From positions 1 to 64,000 of the IMG/VR virus record IMGVR_UViG_3300005527_002139: a stretch of 64,000 nt of DNA. The stretch is one strand, 5' to 3'. The first letter of the stretch is position 1. The number at the start of each line of letters is the position of its first letter. Below, one piece after another: positions 9,048 to 63,726 of the stretch. Under the pieces are notes generated by a model, which did not search any database, was not told where the DNA came from, and worked only from the letters and a program-made list of their open reading frames with translations. The DNA is from a virus. The position numbers and the translations under genes were made by a program.

Positions 9048-11271
9048 CTACTTGCTCCGTGACACATTCGAGTACAAACTCGTTGTTTCTGAAGTCGATG
9101 TTTACTTTTCCACCATTCTTCAACTCGCCAAACAACAGCTTGCGAGCCAAAGGACGTTTAATATCTTTGTCAATCACACGTTGTAGAGGACGAGCACCCA
9201 TCTTTTTATCAAATCCACGATCTACTAGTGCATCAAGTGATTCGTTTGTGATTGAAATTTCAACATTTTTATCAGCTACTTGAGCCTTAAGTTCAACTAA
9301 GAACTTGCCAACAACCTTCATCATTACTTCTTTAGTCAGTTTACCAAATGTAATAATACCATCTAATCGATTGCGGAACTCTGGACTAAAGAATTTCTTA
9401 AGCTCTTTGTCTTCGTATTCCTTGTCTTGACTGTCACCGAATCCTATATTATTCTTTTCAGCATCCTGTGCGCCCAAGTTAGTAGTTAAGATTAATACAC
9501 AGTTACGTGCATCAGCTTCTTTACCATTTGATCCAGTTATACGACCGTTGTCCATAATCTGTAATAGGATTGTGGCTACATCAGGATGTGCTTTTTCAAT
9601 CTCATCCAGCAACAGCACACAGTTAGGGTGTTCTTGTAATTTAGTAATTAGAATACCTGCGTTTTCTTCAAAGCCTACATAGCCTGGAGGTGAACCAATC
9701 AGTTTACTAACGCTGTGCTTTTCCTGATATTCACTCATGTCAAAGCGTACTAATTTTACACCAAGCTGTCCAGCAAGTTGTTTAGCAGTTTCTGTTTTAC
9801 CTGTACCAGTTGGACCCATGAATACAAAGCTACCAATTGGTTTGTTTTCTGGTTTTAGTCCAGCTTGTGCAACAAGAATCTTATCAACAATATTTTCAAT
9901 CGCGTTATCTTGGCCGTATACTTCTGCTTTTAAATTCTTTTCTAGATTTTCTAGATTAGAAGTTTCTTTCTCCATAACCTGTTCTGGAGGAAGATTTACT
10001 ACCTTAGCAAGTTCAAACTGTACTTCTTGTTCGCCTACGATTTTTTCTTTGACATCTTTTAGATTAAATCTAGAACACGCAAGATCGATCAAGTCAATAG
10101 CCTTATCTGGTAACTTCTTATCTGCTTGATACTTGACACTGAGCTTAACAGCAACTTCAATCGCTTCGTCTGTGATAGTTACTTTGTGATGATCTTCGTA
10201 GTACTTCTTAATACCACGTAAGATGTCTTTGGTTACTTCTGGAGTAGGCTCGTCAACAGTAACACGTTGGAATCTGCGCATCAACGCACGATCCTTTTCA
10301 AAGTACTTGCGATATTCTTCCCAAGTAGTACTTGCTACAACTTTGATGTTACCTTTGCTCAGTGCAGGCTTTAACATATTAGCAAGGTCATTAGCACTGT
10401 TGCCGCCACCTGCACCTGCACCGTTCATCATGTGAGCTTCGTCGATAAACATAATAGTTTTACCTTTGCTCTTTAATCCTGACAGTACAAGTTTAAAACG
10501 TTCTTCAAAGTCACCGCGATACTTAGAACCTGCAAGCATACTACCAATGTCCAGCATGTACACAGAGTAATCTTTTAAAAACGCTGGCACAGTACCTTCA
10601 ACGATATTGTATGCAAGACCTTCTGCAATAGCAGTCTTACCAACACCGGGCTCACCAACTAACAGTACGTTGTTCTTACTGCGTCTACCCAAAGCAAGAG
10701 CAATACTTTCAAGTTCGTCTGCACGACCAATCAATGGATCAATGCGTTTCTTTTTAACTTCGTCGTTAAGGTTAGTCGTAAATTGTCTCAGTGCCTTTTG
10801 AGCAACACCTGACACTTCTTCATCTTGTGTTTCAACTTCTAATTCATTGTTGATATAATCAGCAAACTTTTCTTTTTCAATACCTGCTTTTTCTGCATAG
10901 TATGCGGCATGACTTTTCTTTTCAGACAGTATACTAAGCAATACATCGCTCAGTTGAATCTCAGATCGTCCAGCAAACAATACTTGTGTAAATGCTCTAT
11001 TCAAACAGCGTTCAACTGACTGTGTTTTCTTTGGCTTATACTTTTCTGCTTCTGTTTTAATTTCTTCTAGATTATTTTTAAGATAATATTCTAGATTAGT
11101 TTTGATATAATCAACATCAGCACTAGCACCTTTTACTAGATTGTAAAAGTTTTCAGAGCACAACATTGCAAAAAGCAGATGCTCAAGGGTAACATATTCG
11201 TGCTTGAGTGCCTTAGCATCTTTAACAGCTTTATCAAAGACAAGTTGTAGTTCTTCTGATGGTTCAACCAT
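9034..11271 (-). CDS. clpA: ClpA-type AAA+ unfoldase
   Basis: A 745-residue Hsp100 ATPase. The order is a Clp N-domain (about 1-140), a first AAA module with Walker A GEPGVGKT and Walker B MFIDEAH, and a second module with GPTGTGKT and LLLDEIEKAHPDV, ending in the conserved ARPLQRVID segment. There is no ClpB-like middle coiled coil. The loop N-N-I-G-F-G-D before the second sensor is an IGF/L-type loop, which in ClpA and ClpX docks onto ClpP. The phage encodes its own ClpP at 63.1-63.7 kb. Start 11271 is preferred over an in-frame TTG at 11280 because AAGG lies ten bases upstream. Confidence 0.95.
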   Translation of the reverse strand: MVEPSEELQLVFDKAVKDAKALKHEYVTLEHLLFAMLCSENFYNLVKGASADVDYIKTNLEYYLKNNLEEIKTEAEKYKPKKTQSVERCLNRAFTQVLFAGRSEIQLSDVLLSILSEKKSHAAYYAEKAGIEKEKFADYINNELEVETQDEEVSGVAQKALRQFTTNLNDEVKKKRIDPLIGRADELESIALALGRRSKNNVLLVGEPGVGKTAIAEGLAYNIVEGTVPAFLKDYSVYMLDIGSMLAGSKYRGDFEERFKLVLSGLKSKGKTIMFIDEAHMMNGAGAGGGNSANDLANMLKPALSKGNIKVVASTTWEEYRKYFEKDRALMRRFQRVTVDEPTPEVTKDILRGIKKYYEDHHKVTITDEAIEVAVKLSVKYQADKKLPDKAIDLIDLACSRFNLKDVKEKIVGEQEVQFELAKVVNLPPEQVMEKETSNLENLEKNLKAEVYGQDNAIENIVDKILVAQAGLKPENKPIGSFVFMGPTGTGKTETAKQLAGQLGVKLVRFDMSEYQEKHSVSKLIGSPPGYVGFEENAGILITKLQEHPNCVLLLDEIEKAHPDVATILLQIMDNGRITGSNGKEADARNCVLILTTNLGAQDAEKNNIGFGDSQDKEYEDKELKKFFSPEFRNRLDGIITFGKLTKEVMMKVVGKFLVELKAQVADKNVEISITNESLDALVDRGFDKKMGARPLQRVIDKDIKRPLARKLLFGELKNGGKVNIDFRNNEFVLECVTEQVVEKV

Positions 11272-11773
11272 GTTGTGCAATCCTTTTTTCTATTTTAATT
11301 TGTTTTTTACGTGCTAAATCTAATTTTAGTTTCGATACTCTATCAACGAACTCAATCCCTTGAAGATGATCATATTCATGTAGGAAGCAACGAGCATCAA
11401 TATCGTATAGTTCTATTGTACACTCTTTTGCGTCTGTGTCAAGGTACTTGGCCACCAACCCCCTAGGTCTTTTTACATTCAAGAACAGCAACGGATGACT
11501 CAGACATCCTTCTGGACTAGCATCTGTATCTTCTGTTACTCTAAGTATAACAGGATTAATAACAGCGAACGGTTCTTTATTTTCTAGCAGATACGGTTTT
11601 ATAACAAATATTTGAGCATCTAGTGCAACTTGATTAGCACTAAGGCCTATACCGCCTTCGGCAATCATTAGCTCAATCATTTCTTTTTCTATTTGTTTAG
11701 CATCCAGTGTTTCAAAATCAAAAGCAGATACTGCTTTATCTAGCCAAGGATCCGGTGATTTAACTAATTGCAT
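11264..11773 (-). CDS. def: Peptide deformylase
   Basis: A 169-residue enzyme with all three family motifs: GGIGLSANQ (about 40-48), EGCLS (about 89), and HEYDH (about 130), whose Cys and two His bind the catalytic metal. It removes formyl from N-terminal methionine of new proteins. Phage forms are known from marine myoviruses, where they help maturation of host photosystem or phage proteins. The length is typical of phage deformylases, and no core residue is missing. It overlaps DnaJ upstream (14 bases) and ClpA downstream (8 bases). Confidence 0.96.
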
Positions 11774-12598: not shown

Positions 12599-13174
12599 TT
12601 ATACTGGGTCAGTAAATACCATTTGCTCGCCACGCATCATAATATTACTAACGCTTAAATCATTTACTCCACTACCATTATTGATGATATTGGCAATAAG
12701 GGAGATAGCCGGGATCAACCCTTTGTTAGCCGCTGCATAGGCAGCTAGTCCAGGATAACTTTCTTTTATTATTCTTGAGATGGTTCTAGCACTACTAGTG
12801 GGCCGGTCAGCTTCAATAGTAACTTCATTTATTACATCCTCTAACTTATCCAAAATAGGTTTGACCGCGGCTGAGGCAGGCGTGAGTTTTTCCATACGTA
12901 TTGCAAGTATGCCAGGAACAACTTTTACAGGCTTTGGGCTAATAAACTGTGGAATGAAAAGATTCTGTTGATTAGATCGACAAGCAGCTAACCATTCCAA
13001 ATAAGAAGTGTCGCTGGCTTTGAATGTTTTTAATACATAATCAAAGTCGGGGTGCCCCCACACAGTAGCGAAAGAACCACTGCCTAAAGCAGCAAAGCCT
13101 TTTTGTTGTAGAACATCTGTATAGGATGCTGTTGCCAAATCTTGCTTTACGCCGACTAATTCTGTTATTTTCAT
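12599..13174 (-). CDS. Protein-kinase-fold protein
   Basis: A 191-residue protein with remnants of a kinase fold in order: Gly-rich loop GSGSFATVW (about 32-40), a lysine in DYVLKTF, a catalytic-loop-like DLSVSNIM near 173, and a final F-T-D-P-V in place of DFG. The spacing is short and the activation segment ends at once, so this is a minimal or degenerate kinase. T4-like phages often carry such proteins with unknown substrate. The N-terminus MKITELVGV resembles the capsid-targeting leaders of other genes here. Confidence 0.7.
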   Translation of the reverse strand: MKITELVGVKQDLATASYTDVLQQKGFAALGSGSFATVWGHPDFDYVLKTFKASDTSYLEWLAACRSNQQNLFIPQFISPKPVKVVPGILAIRMEKLTPASAAVKPILDKLEDVINEVTIEADRPTSSARTISRIIKESYPGLAAYAAANKGLIPAISLIANIINNGSGVNDLSVSNIMMRGEQMVFTDPV

Positions 13175-50637: not shown

Positions 50638-50729
50638 ATACGTTTACCTAAAATGAATCCCCGTGAGTAGATGATGAAAGCCTTGAGAGCTCTCATCATC
50701 TCTCGCCAATAGTACTGACGATATGTCAT
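50634..50729 (-). CDS. 31-residue basic phage peptide
   Basis: A very short gene (ATG 50729, TGA 50636-50634). ATGA overlaps exist on both sides. The product is Arg-rich with a hydrophobic middle (MTYRQYYWREMMRALKAFII). The coding sequence also holds a 9-bp hairpin (AGATGATGA/TCATCATCT). Its coupled position argues that it is translated. Confidence 0.6.
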   Translation of the reverse strand: MTYRQYYWREMMRALKAFIIYSRGFILGKRI

Positions 50730-51229
50730 TTGCTGATATTCTTTCTAGCTTCAGCTAATAACACAGGATCGCCCTTAGTCATTACTTCTAACAACAATCT
50801 CTTTTCTTCTAAGTATGTTCTAGCAAACTTTTCATCGTGTGCCATAATACTACGAGTGTTAGAGATTAAGTCAGCTAACTTTACTGTTTGCGCCGCTGCC
50901 GGTGCCATAGCAGAGTGTGCCCTGTCAATAGCCTTGCGCACAGCTCGATTGCCTTGTTCAGGACGACTAACATCAGTTAACCATCCCACTAACTCTGCAA
51001 CTTCGTCTCCGAATTCAGCACGGATCACTTCGTTAGTAACACCAGTGTCTTCTACAACATCATGTAACCAAGCCGCCGCTAACATTGCGTCAGTGTGAGT
51101 CACTGTACTAACAATGCGAACAACTTCAGCAGGGTGAACGATGTATGGTTCACCTGTGTACTTACGAAGTTGAGCTACAGCTGAATGTGCCGCTGTTGCA
51201 AATACCCTAGCTCTTTCTACGATTGTCAT
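50726..51229 (-). CDS. MESH1/SpoT-type HD hydrolase, (p)ppGpp hydrolase-like
   Basis: A 167-residue HD-domain protein. It has AHSAVAQLRKYTGEPYIVHP, then AAAWLHDVVEDTGVT (the HD pair), FGDEVAELVGWLTDVS and VKLADLISNT, the pattern of the RelA/SpoT hydrolase and metazoan MESH1. It has no synthetase domain, so it should only remove the 3'-pyrophosphate from alarmones. Start 51229 is preferred since AAGGAG lies six bases upstream of the ATG. It overlaps the 31-residue gene by ATGA. Confidence 0.85.
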   Translation of the reverse strand: MTIVERARVFATAAHSAVAQLRKYTGEPYIVHPAEVVRIVSTVTHTDAMLAAAWLHDVVEDTGVTNEVIRAEFGDEVAELVGWLTDVSRPEQGNRAVRKAIDRAHSAMAPAAAQTVKLADLISNTRSIMAHDEKFARTYLEEKRLLLEVMTKGDPVLLAEARKNISK

Positions 51230-51238
51230 AATCACTCC

Positions 51239-54905: not shown

Positions 54906-54982
54906 GCGACTCGTAGTAGAGTGGTCACTACACTTGGGACTGTAACCCAAGAAGCGGAGGTTCGAATCCCCCGGTCGCTCCA
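54906..54982 (+). tRNA. Plus-strand tRNA, Tyr or Thr by anticodon reading
   Basis: A cloverleaf with GCGAC...GTCGC acceptor core, D-arm GTAG/CTAC, T-arm with TTCGAAT, and encoded CCA. The anticodon arm has six pairs (CTTGGG/CCCAAG) and the loop ACTGTAA. A strict seven-base loop gives TGT (Thr) with C at position 33, and a loose reading gives GTA (Tyr). Identity is uncertain. Confidence 0.55.
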
Positions 54983-55006
54983 TAATATAAAATCATACAC
55001 AGTTAA

Positions 55007-55082
55007 TGGTGCCGCCTCCCCGGATCGAACAGGGTTCCTCGGATTTTCAATCCGTTGCTATGACCACATCAGCTAAAGCGGC
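55007..55082 (-). tRNA. tRNA-Phe(GAA)
   Basis: Acceptor GCCGCTT, anticodon loop TTGAAAA, T-loop TTCGATC, CCA encoded. It is the last tRNA of the minus-strand array. Confidence 0.88.
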
Positions 55083-55218
55083 AAAAATAAAATGTAGTAG
55101 GTTGAGACAAAACTCAATTAGTTTGCGTCACGATCTTTAACGACAGCGAGCTTATCTCTATGAGACCTCTACTATCCGCAACACCTTTTACACAGCACCT
55201 AGCTGGTTACTACAAATT
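55083..55218 (-). other. Structured non-coding spacer
   Basis: No gene is seen. TAGTAG at the left and CTACTA at the right can pair, and a hairpin TTGAG-acaaaa-CTCAA lies inside. Similar terminal pairing recurs in the other long spacers of the array. Confidence 0.4.
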
Positions 55219-55292
55219 TGGGGTGAAGTCGGGAATCGAACCCTGGTCTACTGTTTCACAGACAGTCGTGTTACCACTACACTAACAACACC
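55219..55292 (-). tRNA. tRNA-His(GTG)
   Basis: Anticodon loop CTGTGAA in a 5-bp stem ACTGT/ACAGT, T-loop TTCGATT. The acceptor stem (GGTGTTG) has two mismatches and an extra G at the 5' end, as expected for tRNA-His. Confidence 0.8.
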
Positions 55293-55298
55293 ATTGAT

Positions 55299-55373
55299 TG
55301 GCACCCCTGGATGGAATCGAACCACCGTCCCCACGTTCGTAGCATGGTATCCTATCCATTGAACGACAGGGGT
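55299..55373 (-). tRNA. tRNA-Arg(ACG)
   Basis: Acceptor ACCCCTG/CAGGGGT, anticodon loop CTACGAA, T-loop TTCGATT, CCA encoded. Confidence 0.92.
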
Positions 55374-55380
55374 ATATATT

Positions 55381-55455
55381 TGGCCGGCCCTGAGAGGATC
55401 GAACTCCCACCGTCGGTTTCGAAGACCGAAATGATATCCATTTCACCAAGGGCCG
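55381..55455 (-). tRNA. tRNA-Arg(TCG)
   Basis: Acceptor CGGCCCT/AGGGCCG, anticodon loop CTTCGAA, CCA encoded. It is directly next to tRNA-Arg(ACG). Confidence 0.92.
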
Positions 55456-55459
55456 TATT

Positions 55460-55592
55460 ACCATAGAAAAACACACTCGGCTCCCCTTACAACCTTGTTC
55501 CTGTCAATTCAGGATGAAACTGGATGAACCCAGAGGCTCCCCTTGGTTGTTTGTATCTGTCAATTCAGATTGAAAGTGTGTTTATCTATGGT
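55460..55592 (-). ncRNA. Stem-closed spacer RNA with two repeat units
   Basis: Two 18-base arms (55460-55477 and 55575-55592) are complementary at 17 positions. Inside are two similar units, each with GGCTCCCCTT and a hairpin with the same six-base loop, closed as CCTG/CAGG in one copy (55500-55513) and ATCTG/CAGAT in the other (55555-55570). The compensating change suggests a conserved RNA fold. The right arm overlaps the tRNA-Lys 3' end. Confidence 0.5.
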
Positions 55593-55664
55593 AGGAGCAC
55601 CGGGACTCGAACCCGGAACTGGCAGATTAAAAGTCTGCTGTGATAACCATTTCACCATACTCCC
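55589..55664 (-). tRNA. tRNA-Lys(TTT)
   Basis: Anticodon loop CTTTTAA in stem GCAGA/TCTGC, T-loop TTCGAGT, CCA encoded. Confidence 0.93.
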
Positions 55665-55668
55665 GTAT

Positions 55669-55744
55669 TGGTCCACCCGGTGAGATTCGAACTCACACCT
55701 CATTGATTAAGAGTCAAGTGCGCTACCGTTAACGCTACAAGTGG
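55669..55744 (-). tRNA. tRNA-Lys(CTT)
   Basis: Anticodon loop CTCTTAA, T-loop TTCGAAT, acceptor CCACTTG/CGGGTGG, CCA encoded. Confidence 0.88.
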
Positions 55745-55918
55745 TTGGTCGTAATTAAATTGATTTAATGTGCCAACCAGGACCAATACGGGGTCAAGGT
55801 TGACACTAACGTTTACTTGAACGTTTCATGTCATTCTCCTATTTTAAATTTTTGTCAATAAAGTAAATTAAAGCTACTATCATAAGTAAAACTACGATCG
55901 CCCCATTTTGTTTTCTCC
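55745..55918 (-). other. Spacer with two mini-ORFs, one possibly frameshifted
   Basis: Two start codons have strong ribosome sites. ATG 55906 follows AAGGAG but reads M-G-R-S-stop; one extra G in the GGGG run would give a 22-residue membrane helix peptide ending at 55839. ATG 55829 after AGGAG reads MKRSSKR-stop (to 55806). Nothing else is seen here. Confidence 0.35.
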
Positions 55919-56110
55919 TTAATAAGATGCGTAATCACTAAACTTAGGAAACTCAAGACGATCACGCTCAACTACCTTTATTTCATATTCATCTATATTG
56001 TCATCATAGAATTTAATCTTAAATGTGTCTTCGTCTATTTTTTCTAATATTTCGCAGTCGACAAAATACGATCCGTACATACTAGTATCAAGATATCTAA
56101 TCGTTGGCAT
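55919..56110 (-). CDS. Small acidic phage protein within the tRNA array
   Basis: A 63-residue protein with MPTIRYLDTSMYGSYFVDCE and a later DDNIDEYEIKVVERD. The start has AAAGGAG seven bases upstream. It is located between tRNA-Met and tRNA-Lys genes, so it would be read from the same transcript and released by tRNA processing. Function unknown. Confidence 0.72.
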   Translation of the reverse strand: MPTIRYLDTSMYGSYFVDCEILEKIDEDTFKIKFYDDNIDEYEIKVVERDRLEFPKFSDYASY

Positions 56111-56128
56111 ATATTTCTCCTTTAAAGT

Positions 56129-56204
56129 TGGTAGTGATGGTCGGACTCGAACCGACGATAAACTCCGTATGAAGGAGGTACATTAGCCGCTATGCTACAT
56201 CACT
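56129..56204 (-). tRNA. tRNA-Met(CAT), elongator or Ile2
   Basis: Anticodon loop TTCATAC, D-stem position 11-24 C-G as in elongators, T-loop TTCGAGT, CCA encoded. Lysidine-modified Ile2 cannot be excluded. Confidence 0.88.
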
Positions 56205-56205
56205 A

Positions 56206-56279
56206 TGGCAGGGGTACTAGGGTTCGAACCTAGACTAACAGAGTCAAAGTCTGTGGTGCTACCATTACACTATACCCCA
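56206..56279 (-). tRNA. tRNA-Gln(TTG)
   Basis: Starts TGGGGTA as typical tRNA-Gln, anticodon loop CTTTGAC in stem ACAGA/TCTGT, CCA encoded. Confidence 0.92.
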
Positions 56280-56286
56280 ATAAATT

Positions 56287-56379
56287 TGGCACTTCGTTAG
56301 CCACACCGCTTTGGACACGGATCTAGACCCCTGCTTCCACAGGACTTATAGGCTTCAATACTACATTCCGCTACGAAGC
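56287..56379 (-). ncRNA. CCA-terminated tRNA-like element with non-canonical core
   Basis: GCTTCGT and ACGAAGT form a 7-bp acceptor-like stem followed by G and CCA, like a tRNA 3' end. The 75-base inside has no TTC loop or standard anticodon arm. It lies in line with the tRNA genes. It may be a decayed tRNA or a distinct tRNA-like RNA. Confidence 0.45.
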
Positions 56380-56401
56380 CCGAGCGGATTGTTGCAGTAA
56401 C

Positions 56402-56479
56402 TGGAGCACAGGGTGAGATTCGAACTCACGGTTTTGCGGATTTGCAATCCACTGCATTGGGCCTCTCTGCCACCTGTGC
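56402..56479 (-). tRNA. tRNA-Cys(GCA)
   Basis: Anticodon loop TTGCAAA in stem GTGGA/TCCGC, T-loop TTCGAAT, acceptor GCACAGG/CCTGTGC, CCA encoded. Confidence 0.92.
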
Positions 56480-56486
56480 GTATTAC

Positions 56487-56561
56487 TGGCCTCGCCTACA
56501 GGAATCGAACCCATATTCGTAGGGTAGAAGCCTACTGTATTATCCATTATACTAAAGCGAG
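56487..56561 (-). tRNA. tRNA-Arg(TCT)
   Basis: Anticodon loop CTTCTAC in stem GTAGG/CCTAC, acceptor CTCGCTT/AGGCGAG, CCA encoded. Confidence 0.92.
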
Positions 56562-56568
56562 TTATACT

Positions 56569-56642
56569 TGGCGTACCTCCAGGGACTCGAACCCCGACGA
56601 ACAGTTTTGGAGACTGTGATGCTGCCATTACATTAGAGATAC
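56569..56642 (-). tRNA. tRNA-Trp(CCA)
   Basis: Anticodon loop CTCCAAA in stem ACAGT/ACTGT, T-loop TTCGAGT, 3' CCA encoded. Confidence 0.93.
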
Positions 56643-56649
56643 ATTAATT

Positions 56650-56724
56650 TGGTAGCCACGGACAGTTTCGAAATGTCGACCTATCGCTTATCAAGCGAGT
56701 GCTCTTCCTCTGAGCTACGCGGCT
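56650..56724 (-). tRNA. tRNA-Ile(GAT)
   Basis: Anticodon loop TTGATAA in stem TCGC/GCGA, acceptor AGCCGCG/CGTGGCT, CCA encoded. Confidence 0.9.
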
Positions 56725-56729
56725 ATGTT

Positions 56730-56816
56730 TGGTGGAGATGACTGGAGTCGAACCAGTAGTGCCCGAAGGGCGGCGGATTTACAGTCCACTGGGGTTACCA
56801 ATTTTCCTACATCTCC
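56730..56816 (-). tRNA. tRNA-Tyr(GTA)
   Basis: Class II tRNA with long variable arm (GCCC-ttc-GGGC), anticodon loop CTGTAAA in GTGGA/TCCGC, T-loop TTCGACT, CCA encoded. Confidence 0.93.
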
Positions 56817-57060
56817 AAACTTAGTGACACTCTCCGCTATGCTTTTAGACGCCGTCGCAGGGCGAATGAAGAGTGTGTAGTTAAGAACACTAATAACGCC
56901 TTTTACAAAGTTCTGGGCTATGAGTCCAGTCGTCCCTATAGTGTTCTTAACTACTCTAGGATTTTAACATCTGTGTTGTCGCCACAGACTTCATCCCCTA
57001 GGCCGCCCATTTGCTAGTTTAAAGTGATAGCAGGATCTCGTTTCCTATAGCACTAAAAGA
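56817..57060 (-). ncRNA. Spacer with perfect 16-bp inverted repeat
   Basis: GTAGTTAAGAACACTA at 56877-56892 is perfectly complementary to 56939-56954, closing a 46-base inside. A smaller 7-bp closed element (ACACTCT/AGAGTGT, 56827-56876) lies directly beside it. No coding capacity with a good start was seen. GC content is locally higher. Confidence 0.5.
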
Positions 57061-57096
57061 AAAACCCCCGGAGTATTTTACATTCCGAGGGTCTTT
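57060..57096. terminator. Factor-independent terminator
   Basis: ACCCCCGGA and TCCGAGGGT pair with one mismatch. Runs of T follow on the right (plus) and TTTTTCTTTT on the left (minus), so it can end transcription in both directions. It closes the small monocistronic unit at 57119-57220. Confidence 0.75.
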
Positions 57097-57118
57097 TTGT
57101 TTTTTGAGCTGTTACTGG

Positions 57119-57220
57119 TTATGCGTAACTTGCTCCTACAGAAAGGCCCTCGCCTGGTAGTCGATACCAGCGAATGCAAAACATCTGATGTTTTCTAATT
57201 TGCTTAAACATTTTGATCAT
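57119..57220 (-). CDS. 33-residue basic peptide with own promoter and terminator
   Basis: A short frame from ATG 57220 to TAA 57119, basic N-terminus (MIKMFKQIRKHQMFCIRWYR), then a glycine-rich end (LPGEGLSVGASYA). A consensus sigma70 promoter lies 37 bases upstream and a terminator lies 23 bases downstream, so it forms a complete expression unit. The ribosome site is only a purine-rich GAAAGAAAG. Confidence 0.5.
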   Translation of the reverse strand: MIKMFKQIRKHQMFCIRWYRLPGEGLSVGASYA

Positions 57221-57256
57221 CTTTCTTTCTGTTAGTTAATTTCTTACTATGTGTAT

Positions 57257-57285
57257 AGTATACTGTATTTATTTATCTCTGTCAA
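57257..57285 (-). promoter_or_regulatory. Sigma70 promoter TTGACA-17-TATACT
   Basis: TTGACA at 57285-57280 and TATACT at 57262-57257 with 17 bases between, directed at the 33-residue peptide unit. Confidence 0.75.
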
Positions 57286-57355
57286 GAGATTTTCTTTAAA
57301 AAGTGACAAAAATATTGTTGTATTTTTGCCACACTCTTGAATACGGAAACATTTC

Positions 57356-57430
57356 TGGTACCTGGTCACGGTTTCGAACCGCGGACCTTCGCCGTGTAAA
57401 GGCGTTGCTCTACCCCTGAGCTAACCAGGC
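57356..57430 (-). tRNA. tRNA-Val(TAC)
   Basis: Anticodon loop TTTACAC in CGCC/GGCG, T-loop TTCGAAA, CCA encoded. It directly follows the Bax-inhibitor-like gene. Confidence 0.92.
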
Positions 57431-57437
57431 AAATTCT

Positions 57438-58112
57438 TTAGTCCTTACGACCACCAAATAGTTGTAGTAACATTAAGAACAAGTTGATAAAGTCTAAGTA
57501 CAAGCTAAGAGCGCCTGCAATTTCTGCCTTACCATCATTGTCGTAACTAACCATCTCACGAATCTTTTGTGTGTCGTATGCTGTTAAGCCTAAGAACACA
57601 ATAATTCCGATAGCACTAATGACCATTTGAAAAACTGTACTACCAATAAAAATATTGATTATACTTGCAATAACAATCGCAATCAACCCAATGAACATAA
57701 ATTGGCCAACTCCGTCCAAATTACGTTTAGTGAAGTAGCCATAGCCACTCATTGTAGCAAATAGAACGGCAGCTCCCATGAATGCGCTTACAATGCTTCC
57801 CATGTTATATACTACAAAGATTGTAGCAAAACTTAGACCCATTAATGCGGCAAATCCATGTAAAAATAGCTGTAACGCACTCTTACTCATTTTGTCCATT
57901 GCAAAGCTAACGCCAAGAATGGCTACAAGCGGCGCAAAGATTACAAGCCATTTCATTGCGCCTGTAAAGAAAAATTCCATCAGCGTTGTATTTGATCCTA
58001 CAAGATAACTTACAATCATTGATGTGATAACTGCCAGTGCCATATGTCCGTAAACACGGCCCATTGCACTATTAATCTGCGATGCAGAACGAAAAACACC
58101 TGTTGCATACAT
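57438..58112 (-). CDS. Bax-inhibitor-1/YccA-family membrane protein
   Basis: A 224-residue protein with seven hydrophobic helices and the family end GLTAYDTQKIREMVSYDNDG followed by a last helix. In bacteria YccA/YbhL-type proteins sit in the inner membrane, and YccA interacts with the FtsH protease. Phage use might be to change membrane protease or ion balance. ATG has AAAGGAG nine bases before. It is located inside the tRNA array. Confidence 0.88.
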   Translation of the reverse strand: MYATGVFRSASQINSAMGRVYGHMALAVITSMIVSYLVGSNTTLMEFFFTGAMKWLVIFAPLVAILGVSFAMDKMSKSALQLFLHGFAALMGLSFATIFVVYNMGSIVSAFMGAAVLFATMSGYGYFTKRNLDGVGQFMFIGLIAIVIASIINIFIGSTVFQMVISAIGIIVFLGLTAYDTQKIREMVSYDNDGKAEIAGALSLYLDFINLFLMLLQLFGGRKD

Positions 58113-58301
58113 AAGTTTGTCTCCTTTGTAAGATTACTTATAAAAAAACGAAAGTTAGCAAGTAAGTAATGAACTGTGCAAGGTGCAAACGGGCTGAGGT
58201 TACTCTAGGCCCTAAGCAAATTACAATATGCAAAGCACAGTGGCTTGCGTATTTCCGAACAGCAAATCACAAGTTCGATAGATTCGGGGCATACAAACAC
58301 G

Positions 58302-58320
58302 ATCAGTTTTCAAGACTGAT
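58302..58320 (-). other. Free-standing anticodon-arm-like hairpin (Ser TGA type)
   Basis: Minus strand: ATCAGT-CTTGAAA-ACTGAT, a perfect six-pair stem with exactly the seven-base loop of the tRNA-Ser(TGA) at 59402-59491. No acceptor or T-arm accompanies it. Confidence 0.4.
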
Positions 58321-58424
58321 TGCCAGTATTGGAGTCATCGCATGAAGCGATAACGGTGTTCATCCTCATCTCTCGCCTTCTTCCGGGTAGTTTACTGTTA
58401 CCAGCATACTACCAAAACCTTATA

Positions 58425-58541
58425 GGTGCTCTCTGTTGGAATCGAACCAAACTGTTTAACTCCGTATCTTCCTTGCACGTTCAGCAGTTAGTCGACTTAG
58501 TACCTACTGGTGTTCTCAAGTGTAGTTAAACTTCAAAGAGC
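58425..58541 (-). ncRNA. tRNA-like element: acceptor and T-arm but no anticodon arm
   Basis: GCTCTTT/AGAGAGC form an acceptor-like stem ending A-C-C. A normal T-arm with TTCGATT follows upstream of it. Instead of D and anticodon arms there is a 7-bp helix (GTTTAAC/GTTAAAC, 58454-58460 and 58525-58531) closing about 60 bases. The layout recalls the tRNA-like domain of tmRNA, but the whole is only 117 bases. Confidence 0.4.
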
Positions 58542-58758
58542 ATTTATAAAGTGTCTAGCTACTCACACCACATGAGCCCTAGACTGAGCGGTTACTCTGT
58601 CCATAACATTTATTCTTTTGGAAAGGTGCTAAACCTCACCTAATGCGTCCCCGGATTCCCTACACGGGATCGGAAGGCCAATGCACTACACGCCTAGCAC
58701 TCTTTATGGTGACTGCCCCACCCCCTGTGTATAACGGGCAAGGGAGCCCGGGTTTTCC

Positions 58759-59331
58759 TTAGATCAATTCTTCGTGCTTAAGAATGTCCACAGCCTTACC
58801 ACTTAGGGCAATAGTTGTACGAACATTAAGCTCTAAGAGCTCGTCCTGCAATTTCTGCTTGGCCTTTTTGGCTTCTGCTACTTTTGCACGGAATGTATCT
58901 ACATCTTTGCGAGTCAATACAGAAGTACTAACTTCATCACTGTGGCCGTACAAACTTGCACGAGTGTCTTCTTTGCGGTTCCGAATTTTATTCAACTTGC
59001 CCTCAATGACTTGAGCAGACTCACGAACGTCATGAGCTGTTAGACCTGAAAAGAATTGGATATCTTTCTCAAGCTGAGCCAAGTCTGCCAACTTTTCATT
59101 GACACCTGCTTGTGCATTTGCACGGCTCACTGCCTTGCGAATTTCGTACAGCACATCTGTCAGTGCTACACGACGAAACACATTGCTGTTAAATTCCTGA
59201 GCAGCCTTAGATATTTCAGCTTCAGCCTCTTGGAACTCGTTGATGCGAATTGTTTGTGTCAACGTGATACTTTTAACAGTATCGTTGATGCTGTTCTGAA
59301 GTGCGCTTGCTTTACGAAGTGTAAGTTCCAT
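58759..59331 (-). CDS. Conserved helical phage protein, unknown function
   Basis: A 190-residue, all-helical protein (MELTLRKASALQNSINDTVK; later LNKIRNRKEDTRASLYGHSD and AKQKLQDELLELNVRTTIAL). Heptad-like repeats suggest a coiled-coil dimer. AAAGGA lies before the ATG and a consensus promoter is 27 bases upstream of the start. It lies in the tRNA region but is expressed from its own promoter. Confidence 0.78.
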   Translation of the reverse strand: MELTLRKASALQNSINDTVKSITLTQTIRINEFQEAEAEISKAAQEFNSNVFRRVALTDVLYEIRKAVSRANAQAGVNEKLADLAQLEKDIQFFSGLTAHDVRESAQVIEGKLNKIRNRKEDTRASLYGHSDEVSTSVLTRKDVDTFRAKVAEAKKAKQKLQDELLELNVRTTIALSGKAVDILKHEELI

Positions 59332-59357
59332 GTTTGTGTCCTTTTCTCTATGTGTTA

Positions 59358-59386
59358 ATTGTATATGATTTGTGTCTACTTGTCAA
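59358..59386 (-). promoter_or_regulatory. Sigma70 promoter TTGACA-17-TACAAT
   Basis: TTGACA at 59386-59381, a 17-base spacer and TACAAT at 59363-59358, directed at the 59331 gene, the following RNA region, the Bax-inhibitor-like gene and tRNA-Val. Confidence 0.75.
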
Positions 59387-59401
59387 GTATTTTTTAATGT
59401 C

Positions 59402-59491
59402 TGGCGGAAGCGGTGAGATTCGAACTCACGGACCCTTTCGAGTCTTTAGTTTTCAAGACTAACGCAATAAGCCGGGCTCTGCCACGCTTCC
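59402..59491 (-). tRNA. tRNA-Ser(TGA)
   Basis: Class II with long variable arm, anticodon loop CTTGAAA in TTAGT/ACTAA, acceptor GGAAGCG/CGCTTCC, CCA encoded. Confidence 0.92.
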
Positions 59492-59505
59492 TTTGAAAAT
59501 AAAAC

Positions 59506-59584
59506 TGGTTGCGGAGGCAGGATTCGCACCTGCGATCTCTAGCTTATGAGACTAGCGAGGACGACTGGACTCCTCTACTCCGCT
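59506..59584 (-). tRNA. Initiator-type tRNA-fMet(CAT)
   Basis: Anticodon loop CTCATAA. Positions 1 and 72 are A and A (no pair) while 2-7 pair with 66-71, and the D-stem has A11-T24; both are initiator marks. The T-loop is TGCGAAT. The three G-C pairs usual at the base of the initiator anticodon stem are absent. CCA encoded. Confidence 0.85.
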
Positions 59585-60246
59585 TCAAAATATTATACAG
59601 CTGACAACTCATTAGTACTTCCATCGTTATAAGCACCATTCACCCGAATTAACAAGCTCGAGCGGGACTCGGTACGTCACTTGGGATACTAGTCCAGTTA
59701 GCAACCAATCTGCGCCGATCTTCCGATCAGCCGGGAGTTGAACCCGTCCCCTTCTACTATATCAGTCCTTCGAAGAAACCTTTATAGCGTGACATTCTCT
59801 TGCTGACAACGAATTGTCATGTGCATAACATTTCTGCTATTCTGAAACACACTACGACATTGTTATACAACCAGCTCTAATTGCTGTTTGTGGTAATGTG
59901 TTTTAGAATAGTGTTAAGACTGAGATTACATCTTAACCATAAGCACCTCTAGCATTACCGTACACCTTGCGAGTATACGTTCTCTAGACATCCACTAAGT
60001 CCATATCACTATGTAACCTAGTCTGCTTACAGTATCGCCGTTTTAAGTCAGGCAGTAGACTTGACGCCATATGCTATTCTACACCATCTATTCCGTTAAC
60101 CTTGCGAGCTATTCGAGTGCGCTAACACCCTACGAAACTTCCAGTATAAACTAATGTTACCTTGCGAGCTTCATTAGACTTGATTGTGTTACCACTCAAG
60201 TATTAGATACTTTTCACATACGACCGAGGCAGTCTTTGCATTTTTG
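59585..60246 (-). other. Long non-coding region with repeated hairpins
   Basis: No gene is seen in 660 bases. It has a 15-base inverted repeat (59837-59851 / 59897-59911, one mismatch), GTTAAGA/TCTTAAC (59913-59937), a T-arm-like GGTTCAACTCCCG near 59735 followed by a GGAA-loop hairpin, and copies of CCTTGCGAG at 59965, 60100 and 60160. Confidence 0.45.
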
Positions 60247-60318
60247 TTTAAATGATCGGATTTGAACCGACAGCATTCTTCTTAACAGGAAGATGATCTA
60301 CCATTGATCTACATTAAC
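60247..60318 (-). tRNA. tRNA-Asn(GTT), atypical copy without CCA
   Basis: D-arm, anticodon loop CTGTTAA in CTTC/GAAG and T-arm (TTCAAAT) are normal. The acceptor has two mismatches and the 3' end reads A-C-A-A. CTGAGGCAG and CTGCCTCGG outside the gene can pair and enclose it. It may be a decaying copy, since another tRNA-Asn(GTT) exists at 62169. Confidence 0.6.
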
Positions 60319-60811
60319 CTACCGCGATGAGCTGCCTCAGTTGCTTCATACTCTTTTGGAATACAAAATACAACTCACCACATACCTTTTGCCTCGCGAG
60401 CTACTCAGTGATGTTTCACGATCGGTGTACTGTATTACTACAGCCCACTAACCATTTACATTGTATACGAGCTCTTAGGTGCGACCCCTCGAACAAGTAC
60501 ACTACCCTTTCTCATACCAACTAACTGATTGGTTTTATATGGAAGTCAGCACCACCTGTTACTTTTCACTGCCCCGTGTTCCTTGCGGCACGTCGAACAA
60601 TGTTCTTTCCCATACATCAGCTTTGCTGTTACATCCACCGGTCTTATGAGTGAACGCTACCTCGCGGTAGTGAGCAGGCTTGTTTACGTGAACCATTGCT
60701 GGCGCTAGTATGTAGGCATTCTAGCTTTGGGTGTGTCGCCACACTTATTCTTTGTAAACGGCAAGCCGCCTACAGGATGATAAACCACCCTTAAATTCTT
60801 AACATGTGTCT
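60319..60811 (-). other. Non-coding spacer downstream of a promoter
   Basis: About 490 bases with small hairpins (CTACC-tcgc-GGTAG; GTGTG-tcgc-CACAC) and one more CCTCGCGAGCT element (60392). One short frame (60546-60617) would give a 23-residue Cys/His peptide. Nothing else coding was seen. Confidence 0.4.
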
Positions 60812-60840
60812 ATTTTAGCAAATTTTTACTGTCTTGTCAA
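60812..60840 (-). promoter_or_regulatory. Sigma70 promoter TTGACA-17-TAAAAT
   Basis: TTGACA at 60840-60835 and TAAAAT at 60817-60812, 17 bases apart. It directs transcription into the long structured region and the Asn, fMet and Ser tRNAs. Confidence 0.72.
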
Positions 60841-60869
60841 CATCTTTTTAAAAATATTTCTAAAACATT

Positions 60870-60943
60870 TGGAGCGGGTAGCGAGAATCGAACTCGCGAA
60901 TAAACCTTGGCAAGGTTTCAGGTTACCATTACATCATACCCGC
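60870..60943 (-). tRNA. tRNA-Gly(GCC)
   Basis: Acceptor GCGGGTA/TACCCGC, anticodon loop TTGCCAA in AAACC/GGTTT, CCA encoded. Confidence 0.93.
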
Positions 60944-60948
60944 ATATT

Positions 60949-61023
60949 TGGTGGACCGTCGGGGGATCGAACCCCGACCTAAGCCTTGCAAAGGCCCCGT
61001 GCTCCCATTATCACTAACAGCCC
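60949..61023 (-). tRNA. tRNA-Ala(TGC)
   Basis: Anticodon loop TTTGCAA, T-loop TTCGATC, acceptor GGGCTGT/ACGGTCC with wobble pairs, CCA encoded. Confidence 0.9.
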
Positions 61024-61029
61024 AAAAAA

Positions 61030-61107
61030 TGGTCGGAGTACAAGGATTCGAACCTTGGACCCCCTGGTCCCAAACCAGGTGCGCTAGCCAGACTGCGCCA
61101 CACTCCG
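61030..61107 (-). tRNA. tRNA-Pro(TGG)
   Basis: Anticodon loop TTTGGGA in CCTGG/CCAGG, acceptor CGGAGTG/TACTCCG, CCA encoded. Confidence 0.93.
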
Positions 61108-61108
61108 A

Positions 61109-61333
61109 TTATACTTTTCTTAGATACTCTCTACCAATTTTGCCTTCTTGAATTTCAAGCAGTGCAGAAACTGGCGCATTAACTTGGGTAGACATTTCGT
61201 CGTTCCTGTGTTTCCTTGCTATTTCTCTAGCTCTAACTGAAGCAATTAATACTAGATCAAATCTACCACCAACATTTTCAACACATTTATTAGTATCAAT
61301 AGTTGGACCACGACTTAAAGTTTTTGCTTTCAT
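61109..61333 (-). CDS. rpoZ: RNA polymerase omega subunit (RpoZ-like)
   Basis: A 74-residue protein. CVENVGGRFDLVLIASVRAR and APVSALLEIQEGKI match the conserved core of bacterial omega (V-E-K-I-G-N-R-F-D-L-V-L... and A-L-x-E-I-x-x-G). Omega binds beta-prime and helps RNAP assembly. In E. coli its N-terminal MARVT residues help form ppGpp site 1. Here the N-terminus is different and lacks that Arg. AAAAGG lies before the ATG. It sits between tRNA-Gly and tRNA-Pro genes in the same transcript. Confidence 0.85.
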   Translation of the reverse strand: MKAKTLSRGPTIDTNKCVENVGGRFDLVLIASVRAREIARKHRNDEMSTQVNAPVSALLEIQEGKIGREYLRKV

Positions 61334-61349
61334 ATCTACCTTTTAAAAT

Positions 61350-61423
61350 TGGAGCGGGATATCAGAATCGAACTGATGACCGAAGATTGGAAATCTGCTG
61401 TTTTACCATTAAACTAATCCCGC
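61350..61423 (-). tRNA. tRNA-Gly(TCC)
   Basis: Acceptor GCGGGAT/ATCCCGC, anticodon loop TTTCCAA, CCA encoded. Confidence 0.92.
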
Positions 61424-61433
61424 TTACTAACAT

Positions 61434-61517
61434 TGGTGCCCCAGGTCGGACTCGAACCGACACGCCTTGCGGCACTGGCTTCTAAGACCAGCGTGGCTAC
61501 CATTACACCACCGGGGC
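61434..61517 (-). tRNA. tRNA-Leu(TAG)
   Basis: Class II with variable arm GCC-gcaa-GGC, anticodon loop CTTAGAA in CTGGT/GCCAG, acceptor GCCCCGG, CCA encoded. It is the only Leu tRNA seen. Confidence 0.93.
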
Positions 61518-61531
61518 AAAAACTAACACTT

Positions 61532-61605
61532 TGGTGCCCCTACACAGAATCGAACTGCAAACTACGGATTACAAAACCGTCGTTATACCATTTAACTATA
61601 AGGGC
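61532..61605 (-). tRNA. tRNA-Thr(TGT)
   Basis: Anticodon loop TTTGTAA, acceptor GCCCTTA/TAGGGGC, CCA encoded. Confidence 0.9.
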
Positions 61606-61624
61606 AAAAACTTTCTATATTTTA

Positions 61625-61652
61625 ATTGTACACTCTTTACAATCAAAGTCAA
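61625..61652 (-). promoter_or_regulatory. Sigma70 promoter TTGACT-16-TACAAT
   Basis: TTGACT at 61652-61647 and TACAAT at 61630-61625. It drives Thr, Leu, Gly, omega, Pro, Ala and Gly genes as one unit. Confidence 0.68.
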
Positions 61653-61658
61653 CTAATA

Positions 61659-61735
61659 TGGCGCACCGTAGGGGACTCGAACCCCTGGCCTCTTGCGTGA
61701 CAGGCAAGCGATCTAACCAACTGAGCTAACGGTGC
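61659..61735 (-). tRNA. tRNA-Asp(GTC)
   Basis: Acceptor GCACCGT/ACGGTGC, anticodon loop CTGTCAC in CTTGC/GCAAG, CCA encoded. Confidence 0.93.
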
Positions 61736-61750
61736 AAAATCTTTAATAAA

Positions 61751-61976
61751 TTGTTTGAGGAAGTTCTTGACACGCATCACCAACTTGCGTCAAGACCTCA
61801 TTACAGGCCTAGTAGTTCCGCCGCCTTCCTGGAGTTTGGAATAGTTCTTGCCCTTTGACTCGATGGTGTCTCGTCATACTCTAGAACCCTCCTGCTTCAT
61901 GGGTATCAAGGCCGAGCATTTCTGCTACGCAATCACCTTTTCGTTCACCCCTAGCGGACTAGGTAACCTTAAACAA
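61751..61976 (-). ncRNA. Stem-closed 226-base element with a tiny ORF
   Basis: The ends (61751-61760 and 61967-61976) pair at nine of ten positions on the minus strand. Inside are CCTAG-tccg-CTAGG and a CTTGAC...GTCAAG hairpin. A 22-codon frame (ATG 61877, stop 61809) has AGGAGG ten bases before and overlaps the stop of a shorter upstream frame by ATGA. It may encode a mini peptide or be a regulatory RNA. Confidence 0.4.
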
Positions 61977-61990
61977 CTTACTAAAAAACT

Positions 61991-62065
61991 TGGTACACGA
62001 TACGAGAATCGAACTCGTCTTTCCGCCTTGAAAGGGCAGCGTCCTAACCGATAGACGAATCGTGC
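61991..62065 (-). tRNA. tRNA-Glu(TTC)
   Basis: Anticodon loop CTTTCAA in CTGCC/GGCGG, acceptor GCACGAT/ATCGTGT, CCA encoded. Confidence 0.93.
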
Positions 62066-62073
62066 ATTTAATT

Positions 62074-62163
62074 TGGCGGAGCGTCAGGGAGTCGAACCCT
62101 GTGACCCTTTTTACGTGATCTACGGTTTAGCAAACCGCTGCCTTACCATCCGGCCCACGCTCC
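62074..62163 (-). tRNA. tRNA-Ser(GCT)
   Basis: Class II tRNA, anticodon loop TTGCTAA, acceptor GGAGCGT/ACGCTCC, CCA encoded. Confidence 0.92.
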
Positions 62164-62168
62164 TAAAT

Positions 62169-62244
62169 TGGCTCCTCAGCGTGGGATCGAACCACGGACA
62201 CCTTGATTAACAGTCAAGTGCAACTACCGCTGTGCTACTGAGGA
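62169..62244 (-). tRNA. tRNA-Asn(GTT)
   Basis: Anticodon loop CTGTTAA in CTTGA/TCAAG, acceptor TCCTCAG/CTGAGGA, CCA encoded. It is the first tRNA after the array promoter. Confidence 0.93.
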
Positions 62245-63066: not shown

Positions 63067-63109
63067 CTGCGCCTTTTCTTCTTGCACTGCCTTTTCCTCC
63101 GTCACTCAT
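62921..63109 (-). CDS. Conserved MSDGGKGS-type small phage protein
   Basis: A 62-residue hydrophilic protein beginning [20 protein letters not shown], followed by SGWDRIYG. The same start is found in many marine T4-like phages as a short protein next to the SH3-type gene. Its tail is longer than usual and lies in frame-shifted overlap with that gene. The ATG overlaps the clpP stop by one base. Confidence 0.75.
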   Translation of the reverse strand: MSDGGKGSARRKGADDAKYSSGWDRIYGTRYNGGTKRDPNRGSPDPDAQRTDPKSDVPQTRR

Positions 63110-63726
63110 TATCGTTTCTCTACAACTTTATCTGCTAAACCGTAATCAACCGCTTCTTGTGCATTTAAGAAAGTATCAAATTTCATTGTTTCAAAAAGCT
63201 CATCGTATTGTTTGCCTTTGGTGTTGTGTTTGACATACAGCTCGGTTAATCGCTTGTTGAGTTTTTTACTTTCTTCCATTGAACGAATAGCATCTTCAAA
63301 TTGAAGTTCTTGTACATGAACTGAACCACGTGTTCCAGGAGTACCTGAACTAACTCGATGTATCATAGTACGGCTTTCAGGCAGTACTACTCGCTTACCT
63401 GCCGTGCCTGCTTGTGCTAGGAACGAGCCCATTGAACATGCCTGACCCATGACAATAGTACGAATATCACATTTGATGTACTGCATTGTGTCGTAGATAG
63501 CTAGTCCTGCGGTAACTGCACCGCCAGGCGAATTAATATATAGGTTAATGTCTTTGTCTGGATTCTCTGCTTCTAAAAATAATAACTGTGCTACAATTAC
63601 ATTAGCCATATTATCTTCTACAGGGCCGTTGAGCATAACAATTCGATCTTTGAGCAAGCGGCTGTAAATATCATATGAACGCTCGCCGCGAGTCTCTTGT
63701 TCAACAACCATTGGGATTAGTGGCAT
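63109..63726 (-). CDS. clpP: ClpP-like serine protease
   Basis: A 205-residue protein with the ClpP triad: nucleophile Ser in [16 protein letters not shown] (about 98), His in SRTMIHRVS (about 121), and the Asp of the later conserved region. [20 protein letters not shown] is the family N-terminal signature. Normally 14 copies form a chamber fed by ClpA or ClpX. The phage also has a ClpA with a docking loop. The start follows the upstream gene by a TAATG-like overlap. Confidence 0.94.

Follow-up and report, generated by a model that had tools for sequence, protein, structure and literature searches.

A phage-borne RNA polymerase omega homolog with a remodeled N-terminus and its possible effect on ppGpp Site 1

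Genomic Context of the Omega Gene

The window analyzed in this study, a stretch of 64,000 nt, comprises positions 1 to 64,000 of a 98 kb virus record (IMGVR_UViG_3300005527_002139), in which phage genes for a ligase, a clamp loader, an endolysin, an endonuclease VII and virion proteins are present. It contains a gene for a homolog of the RNA polymerase (RNAP) omega subunit, embedded in a tRNA array (Table 1). No alternative ATG, GTG or TTG codon was found ahead of the conserved omega core in the window ORF, and the ATG start listed in Table 1 appears credible. Sigma-70-like promoters are enriched around the gene, with 10 sites on both strands compared to 2.9 expected, eight of them on the omega strand. 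G+C-rich discriminators, as typically seen in stable-RNA promoters under repression by ppGpp, are missing from the promoters near the omega gene, and for this reason a tRNA-operon version of the idea, with stringent-type promoters, was rejected.

Additionally, the array harbors a GOLLD RNA and a gene for a Bax1-I family membrane protein. GOLLD was also detected near omega in seven of the 20 related loci scanned (L003, L015, L023, L025, L034, L065, and L074), which span three omega types.

Table 1. Features of the window discussed in the text, in window coordinates.
Feature	Position	Strand	Evidence or remark
RpoZ (RNAP omega) homolog, 74 aa, ATG start	61109..61333	minus	PF01192, TIGR00690, PDB sequence and fold matches; dN/dS 0.07-0.19
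Codons of the remodeled motif S7-R8-G9-P10-T11-I12-D13-T14	61292..61315	minus	Alignments; S and R invariant in 29/29 type III sequences
L59 codon, opposite R52 (ALREI) of E. coli omega	61157..61159	minus	No type II or III sequence retains R
Shine-Dalgarno-like AAAAGG, 5 nt before the omega ATG	61339..61344	minus	AAGG-type sites also present here in relatives
tRNA-Gly (tcc), 16 nt upstream of the omega gene	61350..61423	minus
tRNA-Pro (tgg), 1 nt downstream of the omega gene	61030..61107	minus
tRNA array, 28 genes, omega gene inside	54906..62244	minus for all but the first tRNA
Sigma-70-like promoter TTGACT-16-TACAAT, upstream of the omega gene	61625..61652	minus	Consensus match only
Stronger sigma-70-like promoter TTGACA-17-TATACT, extended -10	62380-62352	minus	Consensus match only
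HD_4 (p)ppGpp-hydrolase-like protein, GTG start	50726..51235	minus	PF13328, 65.1 bits; hydrolase motifs intact
GOLLD RNA (RF02032)	59917-60381	minus	201 bits; overlaps tRNA-Asn
Bax1-I family membrane protein	57438-58112	minus	181.9 bits
Match to the PHROG of a T7-type protein kinase inhibiting host transcription	12599-13174	minus	Weak, 40 bits

Identity and Fold of the Omega Homolog

Judged by profile and fold, the ORF encodes a genuine RpoZ homolog. It scored 41.6 bits (E 1.3e-10) against the Pfam profile PF01192, for which the cut-off is 26 bits, and 32.4 bits against the NCBIfam rpoZ profile TIGR00690 with its cut-off of 23.6 bits, and all 22 PDB sequence matches were omega chains (best E 9.5e-6). 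The proposal of the initial sequence-only reading that the core of this 74-residue protein matches bacterial omega was thus confirmed, as RpoZ was recovered above both curated cut-offs. The AlphaFold2 model (pLDDT 85.6) displays the three-helix core of the omega fold, with helices at residues 14-21, 24-44, and 53-62, whereas residues 1-10 are predicted to be flexible (mean pLDDT 57). A Foldseek search with this model returned RNAP omega chains as top PDB matches with a probability of 1.00 (best E 1.1e-2), the modest E-values being due to the small size of the protein. No matching family was found in PHROGs.

The residues F, L, V, A, and R of the core are invariant and common to the phage omega family. 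Based on this conserved core, binding to beta' is predicted, and the phage protein likely works as a subunit in host RNAP. A function outside RNAP, for example as a decoy or regulator titrating a host protein that acts on omega, is very unlikely: phages do target RNAP accessory proteins, and the incorporation of phage omega is itself something we infer, but the conserved beta'-binding core with its invariant residues and the score above the rpoZ equivalog cut-off speak against such a role.

Distribution, Selection, and Origin of Phage Omegas

One scan of IMG/VR with a family profile yielded at least 363 stretches with relatives of this omega, on contigs of up to 524 kb, and 169 relatives were found with the window protein as query. 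The carriers are large, uncultured, mostly lake-type bacterial viruses, and two further viral contigs (L002 and L003) encode an identical omega. Among 80 loci examined, 76 have the omega gene no more than 300 nt from a tRNA gene. Pairwise dN/dS values of phage omegas are about 0.07-0.19 where they could be estimated. It is a firm result that phage-encoded omega is widespread, under purifying selection and syntenic with tRNA arrays, and that the window omega is remodeled at its N-terminus. The 524,565 bp record IMGVR_UViG_3300027749_002876 contains two omega-like genes (L197 and L226) about 310 kb apart, which may be two separate genes, stem from a duplication or reflect an artefact of assembly.

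Among isolated phages, a search of 50,697 INPHARED records revealed no convincing phage omega. The matches obtained there fit host sequence, being either of the E. coli/Salmonella type or an Acinetobacter omega in a gmk-rpoZ-spoT context, and were accordingly rejected as isolate precedents; one additional weak match is located in a 4.4 kb fecal fragment. The expectation of the sequence-only reading that an omega is unusual in phages is consequently correct with regard to isolates, whereas it fails for metagenomic phages. Literature searches, which left most subscription papers outside reach, found no paper on a phage-encoded omega.

For phylogenetic analysis, trees were computed from 58-59 columns, excluding the N-terminus and position 52, with a bacterial sample consisting of Pseudomonadota only. 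Viral omegas were separated from the sampled bacterial omegas with a support of 100/100, and of 95/99 after betaproteobacterial-type omegas had been added. This bears on the question whether the gene merely represents host contamination or mis-binned bacterial DNA, as the INPHARED matches would fit the presence of host sequence in phage records. Nevertheless, the position of the gene inside a phage tRNA array with flanking phage genes, its recurrence in comparable surroundings across hundreds of viral contigs and the grouping apart from sampled bacterial omegas largely refute this explanation, which we consider extremely improbable.

A search of 399 Pseudomonadota genomes with the phage profile returned short omegas of about 67 aa as best matches, which we take to be betaproteobacterial. 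This suggests a source of the phage gene and also a kind of host. These short omegas (MARITVEDCL...GxEMLKKV, about 67 aa) resemble the window omega in the helical core, in length and in having no long C-terminal tail, and both possess a common ALxEI...G[KQ][IV]G...L.K end. Compared to bacterial RpoZ, the window omega differs in being phage-encoded within a tRNA array, in the missing MAR motif, in an SRGPx[IV]DT extension, in the exchange of R52 to L and in a C-terminal GREYL[KR]K.

The Remodeled N-Terminus

Distinct viral omega sequences can be sorted into N-terminal types. Type I starts with MAR[IL]T (or MPR/MSR) and has the length of E. coli omega. In type II, M and two to three residues are followed by SRARYTSE, so that A-R-x-T is kept, but with four or five residues in front of it. 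Type III, to which the window omega belongs, has M and four to six residues followed by SRGPx[IV]DTxKCVE, which places P, x, I/V, and D at E. coli positions 2-5; a few remaining phage omegas have other extended N-termini. The N-terminus of the window omega (MKAKTLSRGPTID) is without an M-A-R motif and carries an eight-residue extension. In line with the sequence-only alignment over V-E-x-x-G-x-R-F, our alignments place P10, T11, I12, and D13 opposite E. coli omega A2, R3, V4, and T5.

Across the 29 distinct type III sequences, S is conserved in 29, R in 29, G in 27, P in 25, D in 26, T in 27, and C in 29, where S and R partly served to recognize the type, which is also recovered as one clade (support 100/98) in the tree built without those columns, the deep forks of which are weakly supported. 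The alignments thus indicate an N-terminus that is remodeled and conserved, not absent. The earlier description of an omega "lacking" its ppGpp-contact N-terminus has to be corrected in this respect, given the extension and the invariant S7-R8. Rescue of ppGpp binding by the basic residues K2 and K4, which had been raised as a possibility, is unlikely and was rejected, since both are poorly conserved across type III (K2 in 20 and K4 in only nine of the 29 sequences) compared to S7-R8. That SRGPx[IV]DT is both extended and strongly conserved argues for a new contact, beyond the mere loss of an old one.

Such a contact could also be made with a phage activator. According to this main rival explanation, SRGPx[IV]DT of the incorporated omega would serve as a docking platform that steers RNAP to phage promoters, and the loss of the ppGpp contact would be a side effect. 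The segment is indeed conserved more tightly than mere loss needs (S, R, and C each in 29/29 type III sequences), an omega-dependent phage-like system is known with GafA (PMC9638019), and redirection of RNAP by other means is plausible as no phage sigma-70 was found in 10 records. On the other hand, no partner gene was identified, N-termini differ strongly among phage omega types and the N-terminal ten residues are predicted to be flexible, and we regard docking as rather unlikely.

The diversity of N-termini on a conserved core would be expected if the additional omega acted as a dosage or assembly helper, stabilizing beta' or new RNAP late in infection, with an N-terminus that drifted because ppGpp control is useless to a lytic phage. 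Many relatives keep MAR, so that omega supply itself seems to be selected, and the phage also carries proteostasis genes (ClpA-like, ClpP, ClpS, and Hsp20). The N-terminus of the window omega, however, is not drifting but shows a conserved motif in one clade, and this explanation appears unlikely to us.

MAR-bearing phage omegas are found at more than one place elsewhere in the viral group of the tree, and nearly all sampled free-living proteobacterial omegas have MAR. The simplest reading of these two observations is that MAR was probably lost within the phage family. A second difference concerns R52, which we take to be a ppGpp contact. It is kept in 21 of 25 MAR/MPR phage omegas and absent from every type II and III sequence; among thinned viral rows, it is kept in 16 of 22 with MAR and lost in 50 of 51 without. 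The association between MAR and R52 (r 0.77) was the strongest among the columns compared, but comprises only two to four independent pairs and is not significant when allowing for descent. As a statistical proof of joint loss it was therefore rejected.

A Putative Alarmone Hydrolase and the Search for Further RNAP Genes

At a distance of 10 kb from the omega gene, the window encodes an HD_4 protein whose best PDB match is a RelA/SpoT hydrolase domain (E 1.7e-17). The residues expected of a small alarmone hydrolase (H, HD, ED, and D) are present as H34, H58-D59, E62-D63, and D122, counting the GTG codon as residue 1, and (p)ppGpp is the predicted substrate. Of 27 omega-bearing records tested, 11, that of the window among them, contain an HD_4 hydrolase-like gene scoring above the cut-off. 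This supports, without proving, the idea that omega phages act on (p)ppGpp. HD_4-type genes are common in phages in general (345 INPHARED records). As the gene is also present in four MAR-type records, and tested type II records are mostly without it, a strict link between hydrolase and MAR loss was rejected.

Omega-bearing records were also checked for other RNAP components. The beta' N-terminal domain (PF04997) was not found in 20 large records, and neither beta (PF00562) nor sigma-70 region 2 was found in 10 records, although fragments or very divergent subunits could escape such searches. A phage-encoded multisubunit RNAP as the home of the omega was rejected on the basis of these results. 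Taken together with the enriched sigma-70-like promoters, the missing beta, beta', and sigma-70 genes imply that an omega acting as a subunit would most likely have host RNAP as its partner. DksA/TraR, the Site 2 partner, was likewise not found in 10 omega-bearing records.

Several further genes were observed. Besides the weak match to a transcription-inhibiting kinase (Table 1), a near-complete Clp protease is encoded by genes for a ClpA-like ATPase, ClpP and the adaptor ClpS, along with Hsp20 (window 9034-11280 and 63109-63726, and L150:11228-11533, all on the minus strand). L150, a stretch of the same record, additionally contains a heme oxygenase beside a ferredoxin-dependent bilin reductase, a phage bilin-synthesis pair (L150:9998-11231, record 91.0-92.2 kb), as well as two further nucleotide-signaling genes, for an IMPDH/GMP-reductase-domain protein (L150:12106-13272, minus strand) and a CHASE2-adenylate/guanylate cyclase (L150:1302-3347, minus strand).

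Proposed Effect on ppGpp Site 1

The MAR motif of omega has been taken to predict ppGpp Site 1 (PMC6912228). On the partner side, Site 1 competence refers to the beta' residues R362, R417, K615, I619, and D622. With omega residues 2-5 deleted, E. coli RNAP has a Kd for ppGpp of >100 uM, while in a multiply mutated RNAP a possibly non-functional ppGpp binding mode remained (PMC7676912). Omega A2, R3, and V4 use their main-chain groups to bind the terminal 3'-phosphate of the ppGpp 3'-diphosphate (PMC10191844). Side-chain identity at positions 2-5 is for that reason secondary, and a buried, proline-containing N-terminus is a stronger argument against Site 1 binding. With an eight-residue extension and a proline at position 2, the same main-chain contacts to ppGpp seem unlikely in the window omega, and a weakened response to ppGpp at Site 1 is plausible for an RNAP that carries it. 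The original reading of the N-terminus is thereby upheld insofar as the MAR-type predictor of Site 1 is absent, but not in treating as missing a segment that is extended and conserved.

Several considerations limit the expected effect. Even after a full loss of Site 1, Site 2 (DksA-beta') would remain, and E. coli without omega shows only a modest recovery lag. In a host whose omega or beta' is itself without Site 1, the loss of MAR from the phage omega would be of no consequence. Furthermore, ppGpp blindness cannot be the general reason for phage omega, because related phages keep MAR.

As best explanation we tentatively propose, with a chance that we see as not far short of even, that a phage-borne replacement omega joins host RNAP, weakens ppGpp Site 1 and keeps transcription going in starved cells. 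In this mechanism, phage omega would be produced along with the phage tRNA array and incorporated into host RNAP, where it would have to displace the host omega already bound, its conserved helical core binding beta' as any omega would. In the lineage of the window, the longer conserved SRGPx[IV]DT takes the place of the MAR segment of Site 1. The response of the resulting RNAP to ppGpp at this site would be weak or altogether lacking, and SRGPx[IV]DT probably has a contact of its own, either to beta' or to some factor of phage or host origin. The (p)ppGpp-hydrolase-like protein might act alongside the omega swap, and host RNAP could in this way continue to transcribe the genes and tRNAs of the phage when cells are starved or stressed by infection, to the presumed benefit of the phage. 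A farther-reaching version appears doubtful to us, though conceivable: widespread large aquatic phages would swap host omega for an alarmone-blind version, with the new segment filling or closing Site 1 and a second protein degrading (p)ppGpp, and would thus escape the stringent response in two layers through a change of a core subunit.

Relation to Known Systems and Significance

Homology of phage proteins to omega is already reflected in UniProt as names. A0A6J5T227 and A0A6J7WH19, both assigned to uncultured Caudovirales phage and named "DNA-directed RNA polymerase," have the same fold and length and are 35-40% identical; no study of either was found in the literature searched. An experimental counterpart of the window omega is the E. 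coli RNAP with omega-delta2-5, which is likewise without the residues holding the ppGpp 3'-diphosphate (PMC7676912; PMC10191844). That variant is a laboratory deletion, whereas in the phage protein a longer N-terminus replaces those residues. The Rhodobacter gene transfer agent is a phage-like element that controls transcription via omega (PMC9638019). Its phage-like partner GafA acts through an omega that belongs to the host, while in the phage studied here the omega itself is phage-supplied. Nucleus-forming jumbo phages also encode relatives of bacterial RNAP subunits in their multisubunit RNAPs, but these are beta/beta'-like polypeptides, whereas only omega was found in the omega phages.

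Although usually viewed as a housekeeping subunit of bacteria, omega is carried by hundreds of metagenomic phage contigs, and no paper describing a phage-encoded omega was among the literature searched. The family offers naturally occurring omegas that either have or lack the ppGpp-binding segment on the same structural core, which makes a direct test of the role of Site 1 during infection possible and also allows asking whether phages edit host RNAP by subunit replacement. A remodeled omega could let a virus keep the host polymerase working in starving cells, which bears on the way in which phages deal with host starvation in nutrient-poor waters.

A bacterial parallel to the missing motif was observed in Candidatus Stammera capleta (L086, L120, L124, L131, and L137), an extremely reduced symbiont, whose omega is also without MAR and, in most of the genomes listed, carries K in place of R52.
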